In this document: positions 34,713 to 44,919 of the stretch, in pieces
Position numbering within the stretch: position 1 is the first letter of the stretch
Layout: every line of letters starts with the position of its first letter
Assembly (NCBI GenBank): GCA_023374025.1
Contig: SIJG01000078.1
Coordinates: forward strand, 311,575-375,574
DNA length: 64,000 nt
Origin: Heterodera schachtii
Taxonomy: Eukaryota > Nematoda > Chromadorea > Rhabditida > Heteroderidae
Direction: 5' to 3'
Made by a program: the position numbers and the translations under genes
The notes under the pieces: model-generated
What the model was told of the DNA's origin: nothing
The model's database searches: none
What the model saw: the letters and a program-made list of their open reading frames with translations, nothing else

Positions 34713-36374
34713 AAGAATTACAATCCAAAAATAAAATCACATAATTACTCAAACATTTAAAAATCAACACACATTTTCAGGCAAATACCAATGGAACGAA
34801 TGGCATAATTTCCAACCTAATTATGACATTGAAAAATGTGCAAAAGATTTGAATGACAAAGTTGTTCGAAATCGTGAAATGCACGGTTTGCACTTGGGAC
34901 TACTGAATGGGTGTGCACGTATCAATTTGGTGCCGAGGGGAAGACCATGATCAATAATGCCTTTGAGCCGCCGACCGAAAGTTAGTAATGAAAAATGAGA
35001 AACTACAAAATTCAACTTTTCGAGTATAATTTTTTGTCTATTGCCTTTAGCTAAAAATAAAGTTATTCAAAAGTTTCTATAAATCTCGAGCTATCGATTG
35101 ATACCAAGAATATAGGTATTGACCAAGTAAGAAAAAAGTTATGGCCTAAGAAACTAAGGATGACCATTCATGGGACGCAGAATACGTCATGGGACGCATA
35201 AAACCGACCAGAACCACTAAAAGTGAGAAAAAATGTCAAAAAGTGACGGACAGTGACATCCGACTTGAAAAAATGCGTTTTTTGAGCCATTTATTCCAAA
35301 TAATTAAGCATATTGAATAAATACTAATTATAAAGAGGGTTGGCAGTTTAGAGCCAATTCCCTTTTTCCATTGACTCAGGATAGCCTAAAAGTTTTCGGG
35401 ATATTCTACTTTCAAACATTCGGCCTTCTATGGAGAGAAGAGGTAGAAGACAATTTAGTCATTCCAACTTTTTAGCAAAATTTCATGCTCTTTATGTATT
35501 AAAAAAAAATTTACTGTATCCAAATTTTTCATTGGCACCTAACTCTGTTTTACGGTAGTTCATCACAAAAAAAAAGTATTTGTTTGGTCCATATATTAAT
35601 CGAAATGTTGGTGGAGTGTTTGTACATAATTTCTATGCAAATTGCATGATTTTTGGTCAAATTTGGCAAATGCCCGGGGATGACCCAAGTCTCATGGGTG
35701 AACAAAAATTTTGATCACTCCAGATCAACCGTAAGGAATGATCTTATCACAGTGGTGCAATTTCATTTTTTTTTGTTTATTATCGAATGTATGTATGCAT
35801 ACCAGAATATTTGTTAAATAATTTTATATTTTATAATGGGTTTCCATTTTGGCGCTATAATTTGTTGCAATAAAATTAATTATGAAAAATGTATACATTT
35901 TTTAAAATTCCTTTTTTAAATTTCAGAAACGAAGTGCAAATACGGCATCGGGAGTGAGTTAGGGATGATGAAAGAAGAAGTACGCGAATGCTTCAATATG
36001 AAATGCGGTGCCACTTTTTTTGTTGGGCGAATGGTGGTAAAAACAATTTTTTTTTTTGTGAGACAGATTAAGCTAAGTTTTCAAAATGATGCATTTGAAA
36101 ATTTTGATTTCAGACAAGGAATATTCTTAAATCGGCAGGGATAATGAAAAAAATATTTAGTCATTTAGAAAACTCAAGGGTCAATGTCAGGGCTAGCAGG
36201 TGTGAGGCTTAGCCTCATTTTGCGCTTTTTGAGAGGCCGATGGGGCTTACATAAATTTTTAAACTGATGTTTTTTTGTGCTTTTTGCGAATTGGTTTCTG
36301 ACAAAAATTTGCTGAAATCGTTATGGATAATGAAAATAAAAATCCTAATCATTTTTTTAATTGATAGATCCATG

Positions 36375-38569
36375 AGTAGTGTAAGGCCCATTAAATGGCC
36401 CCAAAATTTGGCCCCATCCCCTCCACCCCACCCCTCCACCTTTCCCCATCCTTTCTGCTTTTCCAAATTCCACCCCAAATTTAGCCCAATTCCCACCTCC
36501 TTTCCCCATCCTTCCTTTCTGCTTTTCCAAATTCCGCCCCAAATTTGACCCCATTCCCTCCGCCTTTCCCCATCCTTTCTTTCTGCTTTTTAAATTCACC
36601 TCCAAATTCCGCACCCAAATTCTGCCCCTAAGTTGGCCACACCCCCCCCCCCCCTTTAATCCGATCCATCATCCCTTAACTCCGTTCGCCACCCGCCTAT
36701 TTGATCAGATAAATATTATTGATTTGTTGCGAAATTTTTGTGCGTGGCGTTTGCACAAAATGGTGCCACCCGCGCTCCAAGATCGAAATAATTTTTTATG
36801 TGTCAATCAAACTTCGCCGTCGAGAAAATTTAATGCGCGGCAGAGATGCAAAATATTTGCATCACACAAAAAATATTAATTGTCCCAATGCCTATGGTCC
36901 GAAATGTTTTGCTAATAAATATGTCTTGATAAATCAAAGGTAATAATATAGAAACATTGGGGTTTCACATGTATTGCAAAAACCGGTGAAAAGGTAATAG
37001 CAGGTGAAAAATATTGTGATATCAGGTGAAAAAAGGGCAGAACAGGTGAAAAATATTGTCATAGCGGGTGAAAAAAAGGGCATAACAGGTGAAAAATATT
37101 GTGATATCAGGTGAAAAAAGGGCAGAACAGGTGAAAAATATTGTCATAGCGGGTGAAAAAAAAGGGCAGAACAGGTGAAAAAATATTGTCATAGCCGGTA
37201 AAAAAAGGGCATGGGAGGGGTGAAGTCTTTTGATGTTGCCGACTATCCTAAACCTATTGGACTACTCCTATGATGTTGCCGCCAACCAAATCCAATGCCC
37301 CAAATCCTCGCGGGTGTTTTTTTCTGGCCGCACAGCGCCGCGGAGGGCCATCAACCATCCACAAAAGTGAAAGGTGAAGGAAATTCAATTTTCTTTTGCA
37401 AATTAAATCCGAAATCCCTTATCTTTTGGGGCTGTCTATTTTCTCAAATCCTGAGACTATTTTCTGATCTTGAAATTAAAACTCATTTTGAAATTTTGCC
37501 AGAACCGTGCATTTACTCCCTCCCCGCACCCCGTCGATACACCTCTAATCGATATTAATAATACACAAAAGAGCAATAAATTGGGGGATTTTAAATCTTT
37601 TGGGCCATTTTCAAATAGTGGAGAATTTAGCCCAATATCTGGCCCCAAATTTGACCCCATCTCCTCCACCTTTCCCCACACTTTGTTTCTGTTTTTCAAA
37701 TTCAGCCCCAAATTTGCCCCTAATCCCCTCCCTTCCATCCTTCCCCTACCACACTTTTACGCCTAATTTTTGAGAAATTAAAGTTTATTAAAGAGGAGGA
37801 AAATTATGTGAAATTCAATCGACAAATGATGAAAAGTTAAAAGTTGAGATTTATTATTAAAGAAGTTTATGATTTATTATTAAAAAGTTAAAAGTCGTCA
37901 TTTATTATTGAAAAAACAATCACAAAAATAAATGAATAGTAAAAAAAGTTAATAAAGCATTCCGATCTTCAAGTGAAGGTTTAAAAAGCGGATTTAATTA
38001 ATCTTTGTATGAAGCTAAAAAACGATTAACATTGTTAGCCTAATTCAAAAACGGGTAAAGATATATGATGAATCACGGAAAATGTAAAAAAAAAGAGGAT
38101 TTCACCTAATTTGTCAACTAATTCGTTGTCGGCGACAAAGAGACATTAACGCTAGCTTAATTAAGCAGGCAGATGATGAGAGAATGATTATGAAGAACGG
38201 GTTTAGACACTGCTTTTTAGCGTTTATGGCGGATATAACGTGTTTATTAGAAATGGCGAACGTAGATTTGTGTGGTATTTAAACAAAAGTTTTTGATAGG
38301 CTTATTCATATATTAAAATTAAATAATAAATATTTATTGCTAATAAATCCGCGCTAAAATTATGACTACCTACGAAGCAATTGAAGGATCAAAAACGTTG
38401 GTACCCACGGCTGAAGACCTTTCGTCAAAAATTGACGACTTCTTGAACAACATTATCTCCCTGAATATTTTTGGGAAATATGTAGGCCTATTTAAATTTC
38501 GCATCCCTCAAAACTACCAACTTCCGGAATGTAAATTATCGCCGCGGGAGCAGCTTCCTATTCGGTACC
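36375..38569. repeat. Left inverted arm
   Basis: It contains, in order: a CT-rich tract with TTTCCCCATCCTTTCTGCTT units; an ORF at 36,719-36,943; a tandem array at about 36,980-37,205 (GGTGAAAAATATTGTGATAT with AGGTGAAAAAAGGGCAGAAC); and the first exon of the JmjC-like gene (MTTYEAIEGSKTLVPTAEDL, 38,362 on). The arm ends at a GGTACC where the two arms diverge. Confidence 0.9.
36719..36943 (+). pseudogene. ORF in both arms with CCCH-like cysteines
   Basis: The reading ICCEIFVRGVCTKWCHPRS resembles the start of a C-x(7-8)-C-x(3-5)-C-x-H RNA-binding finger, and a later NINCPNAYGPKCF could be a second one. Spacing is off and the flanks are not coding-like, so at most this is a captured and decayed gene fragment. 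The same ORF is read on the minus strand at 43,837-44,061 in the other arm. Confidence 0.3.
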
Positions 38570-40296
38570 TTTTCAGAGGTGCCATGAATAATTTTTAATA
38601 GTTTTTCGATACTATTTTTTGATTATTTATTCGTCCTTTTTTATTCACTAGACTCTGAATAAAACATTATTTCATATTTCTCTACCTAACTCTGTGCACC
38701 AAAAAATAGTATCGAAAAACTATTAAAAATTATTCATGGCACCTCTGAAAAATTATTTATTCGTCCTTTTTTATTCACTAGACTCTGAATAAAACATTAT
38801 TTCATATTTCTCTACCTAACTCTGTGCACCAAAAAATAGTATCGAAAAACTATTAAAAATTATTCATGGCACCTCTGAAAAATATTTTATTCGTCCTTTT
38901 TTATTCACTAGACTCTGAATAAAACATTATTTCATATTTCTCTACCTAACTCTGTGTACCAAAAATAGTATCGAAAAACTATTAAAAATTATTCATGGCA
39001 CCTCTGAAAAATATTTTATTCGTAATTTTTTATTCACTCGACTCTGAATAAAACATTATTTCATATTTCTCTACCTAACTCTGTGCACCAAAAAATAGTA
39101 TCGAAAAACTATTAAAAATTATTCATGGCACCTCTGAAATTTTTTTATTAGTCCTTTTTTATTCACTAGACTCTGAATAAAACATTATTTCATATTTCTC
39201 TACCTAACTCTGTGCAACAAAAAATAGTATCGAAAAACTATTAAAAATTATTCATGGCACCTCTGAAAAATTATTTATTCGTCCTTTTTTATTCACTAGA
39301 CTCTGAATAAAACATTATTTCATATTTCTCTACCTAACTCTGTGCACCAAAAAATAGTATCGAAAAACTATTAAAAATTATTCATGGCACCTCTGAAAAA
39401 TTATTTTATTAATCCTTTTTAATTCACTAGACCCTGAATAAAACATTATTTCATATTTCTCTACCTAACTCTGTGTACCAAAAATAGTATCGAAAAACTA
39501 TTAAAAATTATTCATGGCACCTCTGAAAAATATTTTATTCGTAATTTTTTATTCACTCGACTCTGAATAAAACATTATTTCATATTTCTCTACCTAACTC
39601 TGTGCACCAAAAAATAGTATCGAAAAACTATTAAAAATTATTCATGGCACCTCTGAAATTTTTTTATTAGTCCTTTTTTATTCACTAGACTCTGAATAAA
39701 ACATTATTTCATATTTCTCTACCTAACTCTGTGCAACAAAAAATAGTATCGAAAAACTATTAAAAATTATTCATGGCACCTCTGAAAAATTATTTTATTA
39801 ATCCTTTTTAATTCACTAGACCCTGAATAAAACATTATTTCATATTTCTCTACCTAACTCTGTGCACCAAAAAATAGTATCGAAAAACTATTAAAAATTA
39901 TTCATGGCACCTCTGAAAAATATTTTATTCGTCATTTTTTATTCACTCGACTCTGAATAAAACATTATTTCATATTTCTCTAACTAACTCTGTGCACCAA
40001 AAAATAGTATCGAAAAACTATTAAAAATTATTCATGGCACCTCTGAAAAATATTTTATTCGTCATTTTTTATTCACTCGACTCTGAATAAAACATTATTT
40101 CATATTTCTCTAACTAACTCTGTGCACCAAAAAATAGTATCGAAAAAAAATTATTCATGGCACCTCTGAAAAATTATTTATTCGTCCTTTTTTATTCACT
40201 AGACTCTGAATAAAACATTATTTCATATTTCTCTACCTAACTCTGTGCACCAAAAAATAGTATCGAAAAACTATTAAAAATTATTCATGGCACCTT
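38570..40296. repeat. 130-bp satellite, about 13 copies
   Basis: Each unit contains ATAGTATCGAAAAACTATT (a small hairpin), ATTCATGGCACCTCTGAAA, TTATTCACTAGACTCTGAAT and ATTTCTCTACCTAACTCTGT. The period is about 130 bp. The first ~50 bp (38,575-38,622) is inverted relative to the rest. Copies differ by few bases, and some pairs of neighbouring units share the same variants, which implies block duplication. Confidence 0.95.
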
Positions 40297-40489
40297 CAAG
40301 CTAAAATTCCCTCAACTCCCCTGTATAACATGTACCAGAATAATGGCCATAGATGCTATTTTCCATTGAAGTGCTAGATTTTTTATAAAAATATTACGGC
40401 TAACAGAGTGGGCCTTCACTTTAGACCGTTCCACCCCAGCTAGTCCTAATATCACTTTAATTTTTATTCAACTTTATTTAACAAAAAAA

Positions 40490-40684
40490 TCAATAAAATC
40501 CAAAAGGCATCACATTAAACTCCTCATCGATGATCCCCTTCTGGCATACCGGCCTGTACATTTTGTGCTTCTCCCTCGTCACCACTGAATCCCTCGTCGG
40601 CCTAAATATCGGTATTAATTTGGAAATATTTTTTAAAACTCACCCAAAATCATTCTTGTAGACGAAGAAAGCCGGGCTGTTCAT
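40490..40684 (-). CDS. Small two-exon protein in the Polinton-like element
   Basis: An ATG at 40,684 opens MNSPAFFVYKNDF, a GTGAGT donor interrupts it, and after a short intron ending TTTAG the frame continues PTRDSVVTREKHKMYRP, then IIDEEFNVMPFGFY and a TGA at 40,490-40,492. The product is about 50 residues. The family is not recognised. It lies on the same strand as, and downstream of, the JmjC-like gene. An in-phase splice and clean ends argue for a real gene, but its short length leaves doubt. Confidence 0.45.
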
Positions 40685-40756
40685 CGCTAATTAATGAAAT
40701 TGAAACACCAATTTAAAATTTTAGTATCATCATTTATAAACTGAAAATTTTTGGGA

Positions 40757-40975
40757 ATCGGCCCCCAGTCCCATGGGCACATGCCCATCACCAGACCCCT
40801 AGCCCCATCAGCCCCCAGTCCCATGGGCACATGCCCATCCCGAGACCCCTAGCCCCATCAGCCCCAGCCCCATGGGCACTTGCCCATCACCAGACCCCTA
40901 GCCCCATCAGCCCCCAGTCCCATGGGCCCATGCCCATCACCAGACCCCTAGCCCCATCCGCCCCCAGCCCCCATT
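40757..40975. repeat. ~55-bp tandem repeat, about four copies
   Basis: Units read AGTCCCATGGGCACATGCCC, then ATCACCAGACCCCTAGCCCC, then ATCAGCCCCC. It is CT-rich with an embedded CCCATGGG palindrome. Confidence 0.9.
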
Positions 40976-41098
40976 GACATTTTTTAACAATGTTCGTTGA
41001 AACATTTTATTCGGTTTTTTTAAAGTATGATATCAAAAGGCAAATTAATAATACGATAATCGGGTTCAAATGTATGTTCGGTTAATAGATGAATAGGA

Positions 41099-42419
41099 TT
41101 AACATTCATATATGTTTCCAAACGGGTAGATGGAGTCGAATCCTTCTCCGTAATTGACGATTTCCGCGGTCAGTTCGTTCCATTGTTCTTGTGCTTTTGC
41201 TTCGTCGCCGCCCACTCCTTTTTGTCTCAATACATATTTTTTAATAAGCTCCAGGGTGTCAATGACAGGGTAAAAGAAACCAGAGCATCCTGGCTTGGAG
41301 TCTAACCCATAGGCAGCCCAGCTTAGCGGCCCTACGTTCCAGGCGATGGCGGTGTTAAGGCCAAAAACATGTAAAAGATCCCAAACAACCCGACAATTTA
41401 CGGTTGAAAATCCAAAATGTGCCGCTCGCGGCAAAGTGATTATGCCTTCTCCTTGTCTTTGAACCTAAAACAGACTTTTTTGGATTTGATTACCATAAAA
41501 TCTTACTGTTCGAGTGCAGCGAATATTATTTTGACGTAATATTTCCGGGCTGATCATTATGGTTTTTGCTCGCAGATATTCTGGATCGGCGCTAAACTCC
41601 TTCACAAACACGGATGCCGCTAGGTTCTTGAAGCGGGTAAAATCTGCAGCCGGAATCGAATACCTACGTTACCCTTTCTATATCATTGATTCTTTACAAA
41701 CTCAGACAAACCAGATAGTTAAAGCGTTACAGTCCGATTTTGGTAGCAGCAGACTAATGCTGAACAGCTCCGCATTTTCGGTGTATGGTGGGAAGAAAGC
41801 GCCGGCACGTCTCAGATACATGCAAAAAGACGTCACACCTTCAATCGGTGCATCCATTCCTCCTGAGGCAGCATCCATTGGTTGAAAGGTCAGCAGAGCT
41901 CCAAGTGCTGGTTTCCATTCAGCATCCGCCGGTTCTGGGGCCAATTCCTGTGCGTACTCGAAGACCCATCCCGGCTGATCAATACCCCGCCAAAAAACGC
42001 TAAAACCGAATTTGGTTTTTTCTTTTAATCTCTTAAACCTCTCATATTCGTCGGTTATTCGGTTATTGAGCCAACAGTTCCCCTCCTTAACATACTTCGA
42101 AACCGTCTTAACGGGGTCCGCCTTTTGTACCAGTTTATAAAACCATTTAACGGCATTTTTTCCAATGAAACGGAACTAGAGAAAAATTTTTTTTAATGTA
42201 CCATTATTCGTGGTACCGAATAGGAAGCTGCTCCCGCGGCGATAATTTACATTCCGGAAGTTGGTAGTTTTGAGGGATGCGAAATTTAAATAGGCCTACA
42301 TATTTCCCAAAAATATTCAGGGAGATAATGTTGTTCAAGAAGTCGTCAATTTTTGACGAAAGGTCTTCAGCCGTGGGTACCAACGTTTTTGATCCTTCAA
42401 TTGCTTCGTAGGTAGTCAT
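41099..42419 (-). CDS. JmjC-domain-like protein, cargo of the Polinton-like element (exons ~42224-42419, ~41696-42177, 41507-41643, 41099-41464)
   Basis: Exon 1 begins MTTYEAIEGSKTLVPTAEDL. Exon 2 has FGFSVFWRGIDQPGWVFEYA, then GVTSFCMYLRRAGAFFPPYT and ENAELFSISLLLPKS. Exon 3 has DFTRFKNLAASVF...KTIMISPEILRQNN. Exon 4 continues in phase with VQRQGEGIITLPRAAHFGFS and ends at a stop after FGNIYEC. The order follows the JmjC core of KDM4/KDM5-type demethylases: the ELFSINLLH-type strand, the IMISPEIL helix, and the QxxGEFVxxFPRAYHxGFN block. The expected HxE iron-binding pair reads YTE, while the distal His in PRAAH is kept. An in-frame TGA ends exon 2's frame just before the donor that would join exon 3, and exon 1 joins exon 2 out of frame by the most obvious splice. 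It is either a degenerate or a catalytically altered gene. Confidence 0.6.
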
Positions 42420-44327
42420 AATTTTAGCGCGGATTTATTAGCAATAAATATTTATTATTTAATTTTAATATATGAATAAGCCTATCAAAAACTTTTGTTT
42501 AAATACCACACAAATCTACGTTCGCCATTTCTAATAAACACGTTATATCCGCCATAAACGCTAAAAAGCAGTGTCTAAACCCGTTCTTCATAATCATTCT
42601 CTCATCATCTGCCTGCTTAATTAAGCTAGCGTTAATGTCTCTTTGTCGCCGACAACGAATTAGTTGACAAATTAGGTGAAATCCTCTTTTTTTTTACATT
42701 TTCCGTGATTCATCATATATCTTTACCCGTTTTTGAATTAGGCTAACAATGTTAATCGTTTTTTAGCTTCATACAAAGATTAATTAAATCCGCTTTTTAA
42801 ACCTTCACTTGAAGATCGGAATGCTTTATTAACTTTTTTACTATTCATTTATTTTTGTGATTGTTTTTTCAATAATAAATGACGACTTTTAACTTTTTAA
42901 TAATAAATCATAAACTTCTTTAATAATAAATCTCAACTTTTAACTTTTCATCATTTATCGATTGAATTTCACATAATTTTCCTCCTCTTTAATAAACTTT
43001 AATTTCTCAAAAATTTGGCGTAAAAGTGTGGTAGGGGAAGGATGGAAGGGAGGGGATTAGGGGCAAATTTGTGGCTGAATTTGAAAAACAGAAACAAAGT
43101 GTGGGGAAAGGTGGAGGAGATGGGGTCAAATTTGGGGCCAGATATTGGGCTAAATTCTCCACTATTTGAAAATGGCCCAAAAGATTTAAAATCCCCCAAT
43201 TTATTGCTCTTTTGTGTATTATTAATATCGATTAGAGGTGTATCGACGGGGTGCGGGGAGGGAGTAAATGCACGGTTCTGGCAAAATTTCAAAATGAGTT
43301 TTAATTTCAAGATCAGAAAATAGTCTCAGGATTTGAGAAAATAGACAGCCCCAAAAGATAAGGGATTTCGGATTTAATTTGCAAAAGAAAATTGAATTTC
43401 CTTCACCTTTCACTTTTGTGTATGGTTGATGGCCCTCCGCGGCGCTGTGCGGCCAGAAAAAAACACCCGCGAGGATTTGGGGCATTGGATTTGGTTGGCG
43501 GCAACATCATAGGAGTAGTCCAATAGGTTTAGGATAGTCGGCAACATCAAAAGACTTCACCCCTCCCATGCCCTTTTTTTACCGGCTATGACAATATTTT
43601 TTCACCTGTTCTGCCCTTTTTTTTCACCCGCTATGACAATATTTTTCACCTGTTCTGCCCTTTTTTCACCTGATATCACAATATTTTTCACCTGTTATGC
43701 CCTTTTTTTCACCCGCTATGACAATATTTTTCACCTGTTCTGCCCTTTTTTCACCTGATATCACAATATTTTTCACCTGCTATTACCTTTTCACCGGTTT
43801 TTGCAATACATGTGAAACCCCAATGTTTCTATATTATTACCTTTGATTTATCAAGACATATTTATTAGCAAAACATTTCGGACCATAGGCATTGGGACAA
43901 TTAATATTTTTTGTGTGATGCAAATATTTTGCATCTCTGCCGCGCATTAAATTTTCTCGACGGCGAAGTTTGATTGACACATAAAAAATTATTTCGATCT
44001 TGGAGCGCGGGTGGCACCATTTTGTGCAAACGCCACGCACAAAAATTTCGCAACAAATCAATAATATAGGCGGGTGGCGAACGGAGTTAAGGGATGATGG
44101 ATCGGATTAAAGGGGGGGGGGGGGTGTGGCCAACTTAGGGGCAGAATTTGGGTGCGGAATTTGGAGGTGAATTTAAAAAGCAGAAAGAAAGGATGGGGAA
44201 AGGCGGAGGGAATGGGGTCAAATTTGGGGCGGAATTTGGAAAAGCAGAAAGGATGGGGAAAGGTGGAGGGGTGGGGTGGAGGGGATGGGGCCAAATTTTG
44301 GGGCCATTTAATGGGCCTTACACTACT
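42212..44327. repeat. Right inverted arm
   Basis: This is the inverted copy of 36,375-38,569 with the same sub-features: the JmjC-like exon 1, the tandem array at about 43,575-43,790 and the CCCH-like ORF. It is shorter than the left arm mainly through loss of one CT-rich unit and a ~15-bp deletion near 44,065. Confidence 0.9.
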
Positions 44328-44919
44328 TCCATGTTTTTCATTTTCCATCTGCTAATTACCTTTTTGACACCCGAATGATCGGAAAATCTTTCAAACTACC
44401 ATTTTTAGAATCGTAATCTATCCTTTAATAACGTAAAGTTTTATGCCCTATTTTACAAATTATGTCCATATTTCGCAATTTTATGTTCATTTAATTGGAG
44501 GCCCTAATGACACCATAAATGGTCATTCATGGATAAAAAATTTTTTTACCACCACAAATCAAATATTCATCAATATTGATGGATAAACTTTTTATTTTGG
44601 TGATACAAATCACTTTTTCCAGGTAAATACCAATGGAATAAATGGGATTGTTTCGCCAGTCATCTTAAACAACAAAATTTTGCCGAAATTCAAACCAATG
44701 TTACTGATCAAGAACGTGCCGATCACAATTTGCCGAGTGCGACTGATTGGGAAAGCACCTTCCTGTTTGGTGAATCTTGGAAGGACATGGCCAATACACA
44801 TTTTAAGCCGCCACTGCCGCTACCGACGACGACGCCGGCAGGTGAATCAGAATGCCAATCCCTAATTGCCCAAAATAGGTTTACCTCAGTTCGGCACTAC
44901 GGTTTGGCCTAAGCATGTT

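Follow-up and report, generated by a model that had tools for sequence, protein, structure and literature searches.

Polintons, or Mavericks, with their characteristic ends, 6-bp target duplications and virus-like genes, are already known. Vertebrate Mavericks are reported to have (AGT)2...(ACT)2 ends and perfect 6-bp duplications, with terminal arms of 46-1,447 bp in intact copies (PMC8097293), virus-like genes are described for Polintons (PMC4028283), and weevil Mavericks carry bacterial genes (PMC13419823). A report on adeno-associated virus (AAV) describes snap-back genomes in symmetric and asymmetric forms, the asymmetric ones with an unpaired loop (PMC8235507). Here we analyzed a 64,000-nucleotide stretch of the nematode Heterodera schachtii (GCA_023374025.1, contig SIJG01000078.1, positions 311,575 to 375,574; hereafter the window), which contains a mobile element with long inverted arms (the window element; Table 1). 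This element is a non-autonomous Polinton derivative, since other elements of this genome share its ends and 6-bp duplications and carry integrase, protease and DNA polymerase B (polB) genes. Having no working copy of such genes itself, it is not a Polinton proper. Its two arms appear, from sequence comparison, to be inverted copies of one parental Polinton end. We consider it probable, at about two chances in three, that the element arose by snap-back, in which an extrachromosomal copy folds back on itself while replicating; its insertion was then likely the work of an integrase acting in trans.

A first-pass annotation of the window had given the coordinates of the element, its complementary ends, the TCCATG duplication and arms of 2.1-2.2 kb, all of them correctly and the coordinates to the base. 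It had also assigned the ends and the duplication to the Polinton type, which is borne out by the 41-bp inverted termini and by a duplication that stops at 6 bp; the flanks fail to match at 4, 5, 7 or 8 bp. Allowing up to 3 mismatches, the 41-bp terminus has no further match in the window, and none was obtained in 100 shuffles. The left and right arms differ by 4 substitutions and by indels of 64, 14 and 1 bp.

To place these ends in a genomic context, the 178.5-Mb assembly (356 contigs) was searched with a terminus pattern derived from the earliest copies found, and the same pattern read backwards served as control. We identified 82 exact matches versus 6 for the control. By the exact pattern, 50 of the 82 had no opposite-orientation partner within 20 kb, the left end of element C56 among them. 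Fifteen opposite-orientation pairs, together with C13 and C56, which were found through inverted polB copies, gave a sample of 17 end-mapped elements. A second left end of C1 and a second right end of C113, neither with a duplication, were left out of the 15 pairs. Also outside the sample are C77, whose left end is a mutated remnant only, and C195 and C84, each with a single clear end in the pieces fetched. Perfect 6-bp duplications, with a different 6-mer at each site, were present in 12 of the 15 pairs, and C13 (CATATT) raised the count to 13 of 17. When the left flank of one element was combined with the right flank of another (266 pairs), no match exceeded 4 bases. The first-pass annotation had proposed looking for other copies with other 6-bp duplications and for polB- and integrase-bearing elements with these ends. 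Both were found: all 13 clean duplications are 6 bp long, and three elements with these ends contain integrase, protease and polB matches. The first, C16 (16.7 kb, duplication ACCAGA), matched in Pfam a packaging ATPase (Pox_A32, E 6.5e-8; Adeno_IVa2, 2.5e-5), the integrase core rve (1.6e-9) and DNA_pol_B_2 (5.5e-12), with an adenovirus-type protease match just under the cut-off; of the three, this is the one in which the ATPase was detected. The others are C1 (17.5 kb, GCCATC), in which the polB match spans two stops, and C18 (15.8 kb, GTTGTT).

The window element itself has no working copy of such genes, in agreement with the proposed loss of polymerase, integrase and capsid genes. When the JmjC piece was excluded, 15 of 17 open reading frames (ORFs) of C16 and of the related element C26 had no match in 36375-44327 at E 0.01, and the other two, from polB and the PAZ-like gene, matched as scraps, over 17 and 31 residues respectively. 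An internal segment of 185 bp (40296-40480) is conserved: 17 other places, C16, C1, C18, C26, C141 and C122 among them, match 181 or more of its bases at 88-93%.

What the first-pass annotation missed is that both arms come from one parental end and that whole-element palindromes are common in this genome. Both arms match the JmjC-bearing end of C26 for about 1 kb beyond the terminal repeat of C26 (95-96%), including cargo exon 1, and the other end of C26 matches them within the terminal-repeat part only. In the right half of the window element, the stretch between about 1.1 and 4.0 kb in from the end follows C26 collinearly, indels apart (88-96%). It stops at position 40296, where a 130-bp satellite abuts it and extends to the inner edge of the left arm. 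A simple internal deletion would have kept two different parental ends and therefore does not account for this structure. Since its cargo exon 1 is cut off within an intron, the left arm is probably the copied side. Thus, in its sequence organization, the element appears to consist of one parental end of 4 kb whose inner side is fused to a shorter copy of the same end in inverted orientation, with positions 38570-42211 as the unpaired centre.

The window element is a partial palindrome among the 17 end-mapped elements, and seven others (C34a, C40, C95, C13, C56, C28 and C30) are, as far as sampled, near-complete palindromes. Six of these seven have a perfect 6-bp duplication, and three (C95, C13 and C56) have polB in each arm. 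C34a, C40 and C95 were compared almost throughout, C13 and C56 at the centre, the termini and the inverted polB pairs, and for C28 and C30 the comparison used the termini and 1-kb probes in mirrored positions, which were complementary at 100% and 99.7%, respectively. The arm comparison covered all of the 17 but C1, C18, C113 and C122. Five further elements have short terminal repeats (0.95 kb in C16; less than 0.2 kb in C5, C34b, C197 and C49). By self-comparison, C34a (12.7 kb) and C77 are near-complete palindromes with inner arms 98% alike, C40 (10.9 kb) is a palindrome that leaves more of its centre unpaired, and in C95 (15.3 kb) the arms are 98-99% alike. Outer arm parts are less alike (92% in C34a, 94% in C40). 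Inverted polB pairs with palindromic centres occur at C13, C56 and also C195. The very centres are unpaired in C34a, C40, C95, C13 and C56, as well as in C77 and C195, both outside the 17; counted outward from the midpoint, 318 alignment columns per side are unpaired in C40 and 19 to 51 in the other six of these seven palindromes. The parental ends also differ, being the polB end in C95, C13 and C56 and the JmjC end in the window element, and weak matches indicate that C34a and C40 were built from an end carrying a TBP fragment.

We infer every step that precedes integration. The parent would be a linear genome on which polymerase B begins copying, by protein priming, at the inverted ends. A single strand would be released by strand displacement, and its growing end would switch template onto its own complement. 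The product would be hairpin-like and asymmetric, one arm being 4.0 kb long (44327 to 40296) and the other 2.2 kb (36375 to 38569), with the junction between them now filled by the satellite. Because both ends of this product would be the same functional terminus, the integrase of an intact Polinton could still act on it and would join it to target DNA with a 6-bp stagger. Whole-element palindromes elsewhere would represent the symmetric outcome of the same process. The position of the 6-bp duplication outside the arms fits a molecule that integrated as a unit. By analogy with defective virus genomes, Polinton genomes in this nematode appear to snap back repeatedly during replication, and the resulting palindromes to integrate.

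The main rival is that an ordinary deleted Polinton inserted and that its arms grew later, when a break was repaired by copying the opposite end through inverted gene conversion or break-induced replication. Such repair would leave the duplication intact, and inner arms are nearly identical within an element, compared with differences of several percent between elements. Yet it would have to recur separately at eight loci (the seven palindromes and the window element), and the palindromes C34a, C77 and C40, which lie at different loci, are about 93-96% alike, which fits palindromes moving as palindromes; we regard later repair as unlikely, if clearly the most serious competitor. Several observations weigh against snap-back before integration. 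The duplication alone cannot separate palindrome formation before insertion from formation after it, later gene conversion is possible because the arms of the window element are so alike, and the point of the original fold-back is masked by the satellite that now occupies the junction. C56 has termini only 80-85% alike and no duplication, and C197, C113 and C122 also have none at their termini (4 of 17 end pairs including C56). Palindromes share sequence within groups (C34a, C77 and C40; C13, C195 and C95), so the number of independent origins, about three, is a lower bound. Finally, C26 is a relative and not a proven parent, because the outermost 1.1 kb of the arms matches it in 73-84% patches only, its left terminus was not found (there is a one-base N there) and no polB was found in it.

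Two other explanations fare worse. That the palindromes are assembly artefacts, for example from reads through a missed adapter, could be suspected from C28, whose arms are identical over the 1 kb sampled, and from C1 (C1:2707124-2724670), where the host flank of the right end is repeated inverted beside the element end at 2709769, reflecting either rearranged DNA or a fold-back in the assembly. Mirrored flanks would be expected of an artefact, whereas unlike flanks and a 6-bp duplication bound six of the seven palindromes; in addition, arms mostly differ by about 1-8% and the examined centres are asymmetric, which makes this explanation very improbable. We also considered whether the element could be a DNA transposon of some other class that has long inverted repeats but no relation to Polintons, such as Foldback or Ginger. 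Foldback-type elements have long arms and internal tandem repeats, which the window element resembles, but this reading is hardly credible given that elements bearing polB, integrase and protease have identical ends and that the internal segment and the polB and PAZ-like scraps are common to full-length Polintons. Integration of a snapped-back copy is the reading that we favour for the window element. On a broader and more tentative level, nematode Polintons may generate transmissible palindromic defective genomes whose copying and integration come at a cost to full-length elements and which have become a large share of the family in this genome. These could amount to a self-complementary class of Polintons, with the same genes in each arm and the same terminus at both ends, an idea to which we give somewhat less than even odds.

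The first-pass annotation had also described the element as a derivative carrying a chromatin-enzyme-like cargo. The gene type was identified correctly; that the derivative itself acquired the gene is not supported, and the copy is damaged. Pfam gave no match for the separate cargo exons of the window, and the JmjC assignment was made via the C26 relative, spliced by hand. Its predicted product of 466 residues matched JmjC (Pfam, E 3.2e-20), with RPH1 (E 1.7e-18) and KDM4D (about 1e-16) as the closest solved relatives over the JmjC core. The metal-ligand pattern His-Thr-Glu...His, which corresponds to the His-x-Glu...His triad of KDM4, is intact in C26; C26 differs from KDM4 at 2-oxoglutarate-contact positions, the Asn and Lys after the HxE motif. 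The cargo of C26 thus resembles KDM4 and RPH1 over the JmjC core, while the window copy has Tyr in place of the first metal-ligand His. Because of this substitution, a frameshift in exon 2, a lost splice acceptor and a 3' deletion, the window copy lacks what an active KDM4-type enzyme requires and is predicted to be a pseudogene, an inactive passenger and relic of a KDM4-like JmjC gene. The sole database homologue returned was a Heterodera trifolii protein (88% identity over 76% of the query). JmjC relatives occur at about 16 places in the genome, many of them fragmentary, and adjoin Polinton-type ends at C122 and C141 too. The retention of the JmjC domain and metal triad in C26, together with these relatives, could indicate a selected cargo whose protein aids the element by removing silencing chromatin marks. 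The lesions in the window copy speak against this, and we consider it very unlikely for the window element.

The cargo was probably inherited from a JmjC-bearing Polinton lineage (C26, C141 and C122). No polB match was found at these three loci among the matches listed, and none of four C16 polB pieces matched the C26 interior at E 1e-10. C26 has integrase, protease and TBP matches, and an ATPase match under the cut-off lies in a piece cut by the stretch end. The JmjC gene of C26 adjoins the end where C16 carries polB. The polB scrap just inside the JmjC gene of the window element suggests that the JmjC gene took the place of polB.

Several further features of these elements were observed. In the window, 38570-38621 is an inverted 52-bp piece of the 130-bp satellite unit that precedes the satellite copies; at both edges of the block lie inverted copies of one 45-52 bp sequence, as though the satellite had expanded within a small inverted-repeat element. 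Related matches (73-74%) are scattered across 15.6 kb at C84:146691-162273, just inside another AGTAGTGTAAGGCCC end, and a relative of the satellite was also noted at C28:980480-980611. The interiors of C34a, C40 and C77 (L040, L039 and L043) contain small ORFs repeated in both arms, one with an AT-hook-like motif (E 0.028) and one FLYWCH-like by eye, with no polB or integrase match among the matches listed. C49:604462-607458 is a 3.0-kb derivative with the same ends, short terminal repeats and the duplication GGCATG, representing a simple small non-autonomous form. A TBP gene lies near one end of C16 (L033:65-688; Pfam TBP, E 7.3e-36). Relatives of it, 85-96% identical and many with one internal stop, were detected at 14 other places (C59, C116, C36, C1, C119, C208, C61, C26, C46, C80, C149, C2, C82 and C44), with weaker copies inside the mapped elements C18 and C122. 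A PAZ-like domain, unexpected in a Polinton, is present in C16 beside the conserved internal segment (L034:864-1256; E 4.7e-6, just under the cut-off), and related sequence occurs in C26 (L044). As to a double jelly-roll major capsid protein in the relatives, a 453-residue ORF of C26 matched DJR-like_dom at E 0.096, below the cut-off, and its sole solved-structure match was an antibody fragment (E 1.2). Rfam and tRNA scans of the window found nothing.

Table 1. Features of the window element and its immediate flanks (positions in the window)
Feature	Position	Strand	Remarks
Window element	36375..44327		7,953 bp; ends AGTAGT...ACTACT
TCCATG target duplication, left copy	36369..36374	.	
TCCATG target duplication, right copy	44328..44333	.	
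Left terminus	36375..36415	+	Begins AGTAGTGTAAGGCCC; 41 bp identical to inverted right terminus
Right terminus	44287..44327	-	Inverted copy of left terminus
Left arm	36375..38569	+	2,195 bp; inverted copy of right arm; includes truncated cargo exon 1
Right arm	42212..44327	-	2,116 bp
Exon-1 copy in left arm	38362..38564	+	Cut off just inside following intron; open frame to 38598 enters satellite
Satellite, 130-bp unit	38570..40295	.	At inner edge of left arm; 12.9 copies from 38622
PAZ-like gene scrap	40282..40371	+	Last 31 residues; 58% identity to C16, E 2.6e-8
Conserved internal Polinton segment	40296..40480	.	
polB scrap	40628..40678	-	17 residues; 88% identity to C-terminal part of C16 polB ORF, E 6e-6
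50-bp tandem repeat	40757..40971	.	Adjoins cargo in C26 too
Cargo last-exon remnant	41099..41362	-	Acceptor AG missing; about 170 bp of 3' sequence deleted vs C26
Cargo exon 4 (predicted)	41402..41464	-	Second metal-ligand His (AAHFGF)
Cargo exon 3 (predicted)	41507..41663	-	
Cargo exon 2 (predicted)	41712..42175	-	1-bp deletion vs C26; His-to-Tyr near 41785, first metal ligand
Cargo exon 1 (predicted)	42217..42419	-	Begins MTTYEAIEGSKTLVPTAEDL

In the titles and abstract openings of the literature searched, palindromic Polintons and JmjC or TBP cargo in Polintons were not described. As far as these searches reach, the new features are Polinton palindromes bounded by target duplications, the presence of a JmjC gene where polB was not detected in the lineage, and TBP genes close to an end in several elements. 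Template switching in free genomes replicated by protein priming would be expected to leave just such palindromes with clean duplications, and free, virus-like replication of linear Polintons thereby becomes a testable question. They also suggest how a large self-synthesizing element could shed genes and stay mobile, and point to a JmjC gene at the polB end of a Polinton lineage in which polB itself was not detected.

Compared with Polintons and Mavericks, the window element is alike in its ends and duplication, and its relatives here carry integrase, packaging ATPase, protease and polB; it differs in having no working core gene and arms of 2.1-2.2 kb that would both derive from one parental end. 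Incomplete genomes of adenovirus, whose linear DNA is replicated by protein priming, have one end duplicated in inverted orientation, as does the window element; they are packaged in virions and not integrated, unlike the window element. AAV is a parvovirus with hairpin-primed replication, whereas protein priming is the mode expected here, the copies are integrated with 6-bp duplications, and interference with a helper is an analogy only. The snap-back genomes of AAV are nonetheless the nearest documented parallel, in that one parental end is repeated inverted: over the inner 1 kb, by comparison with C26, both termini of the window element trace to one parental end, and its centre is unpaired.

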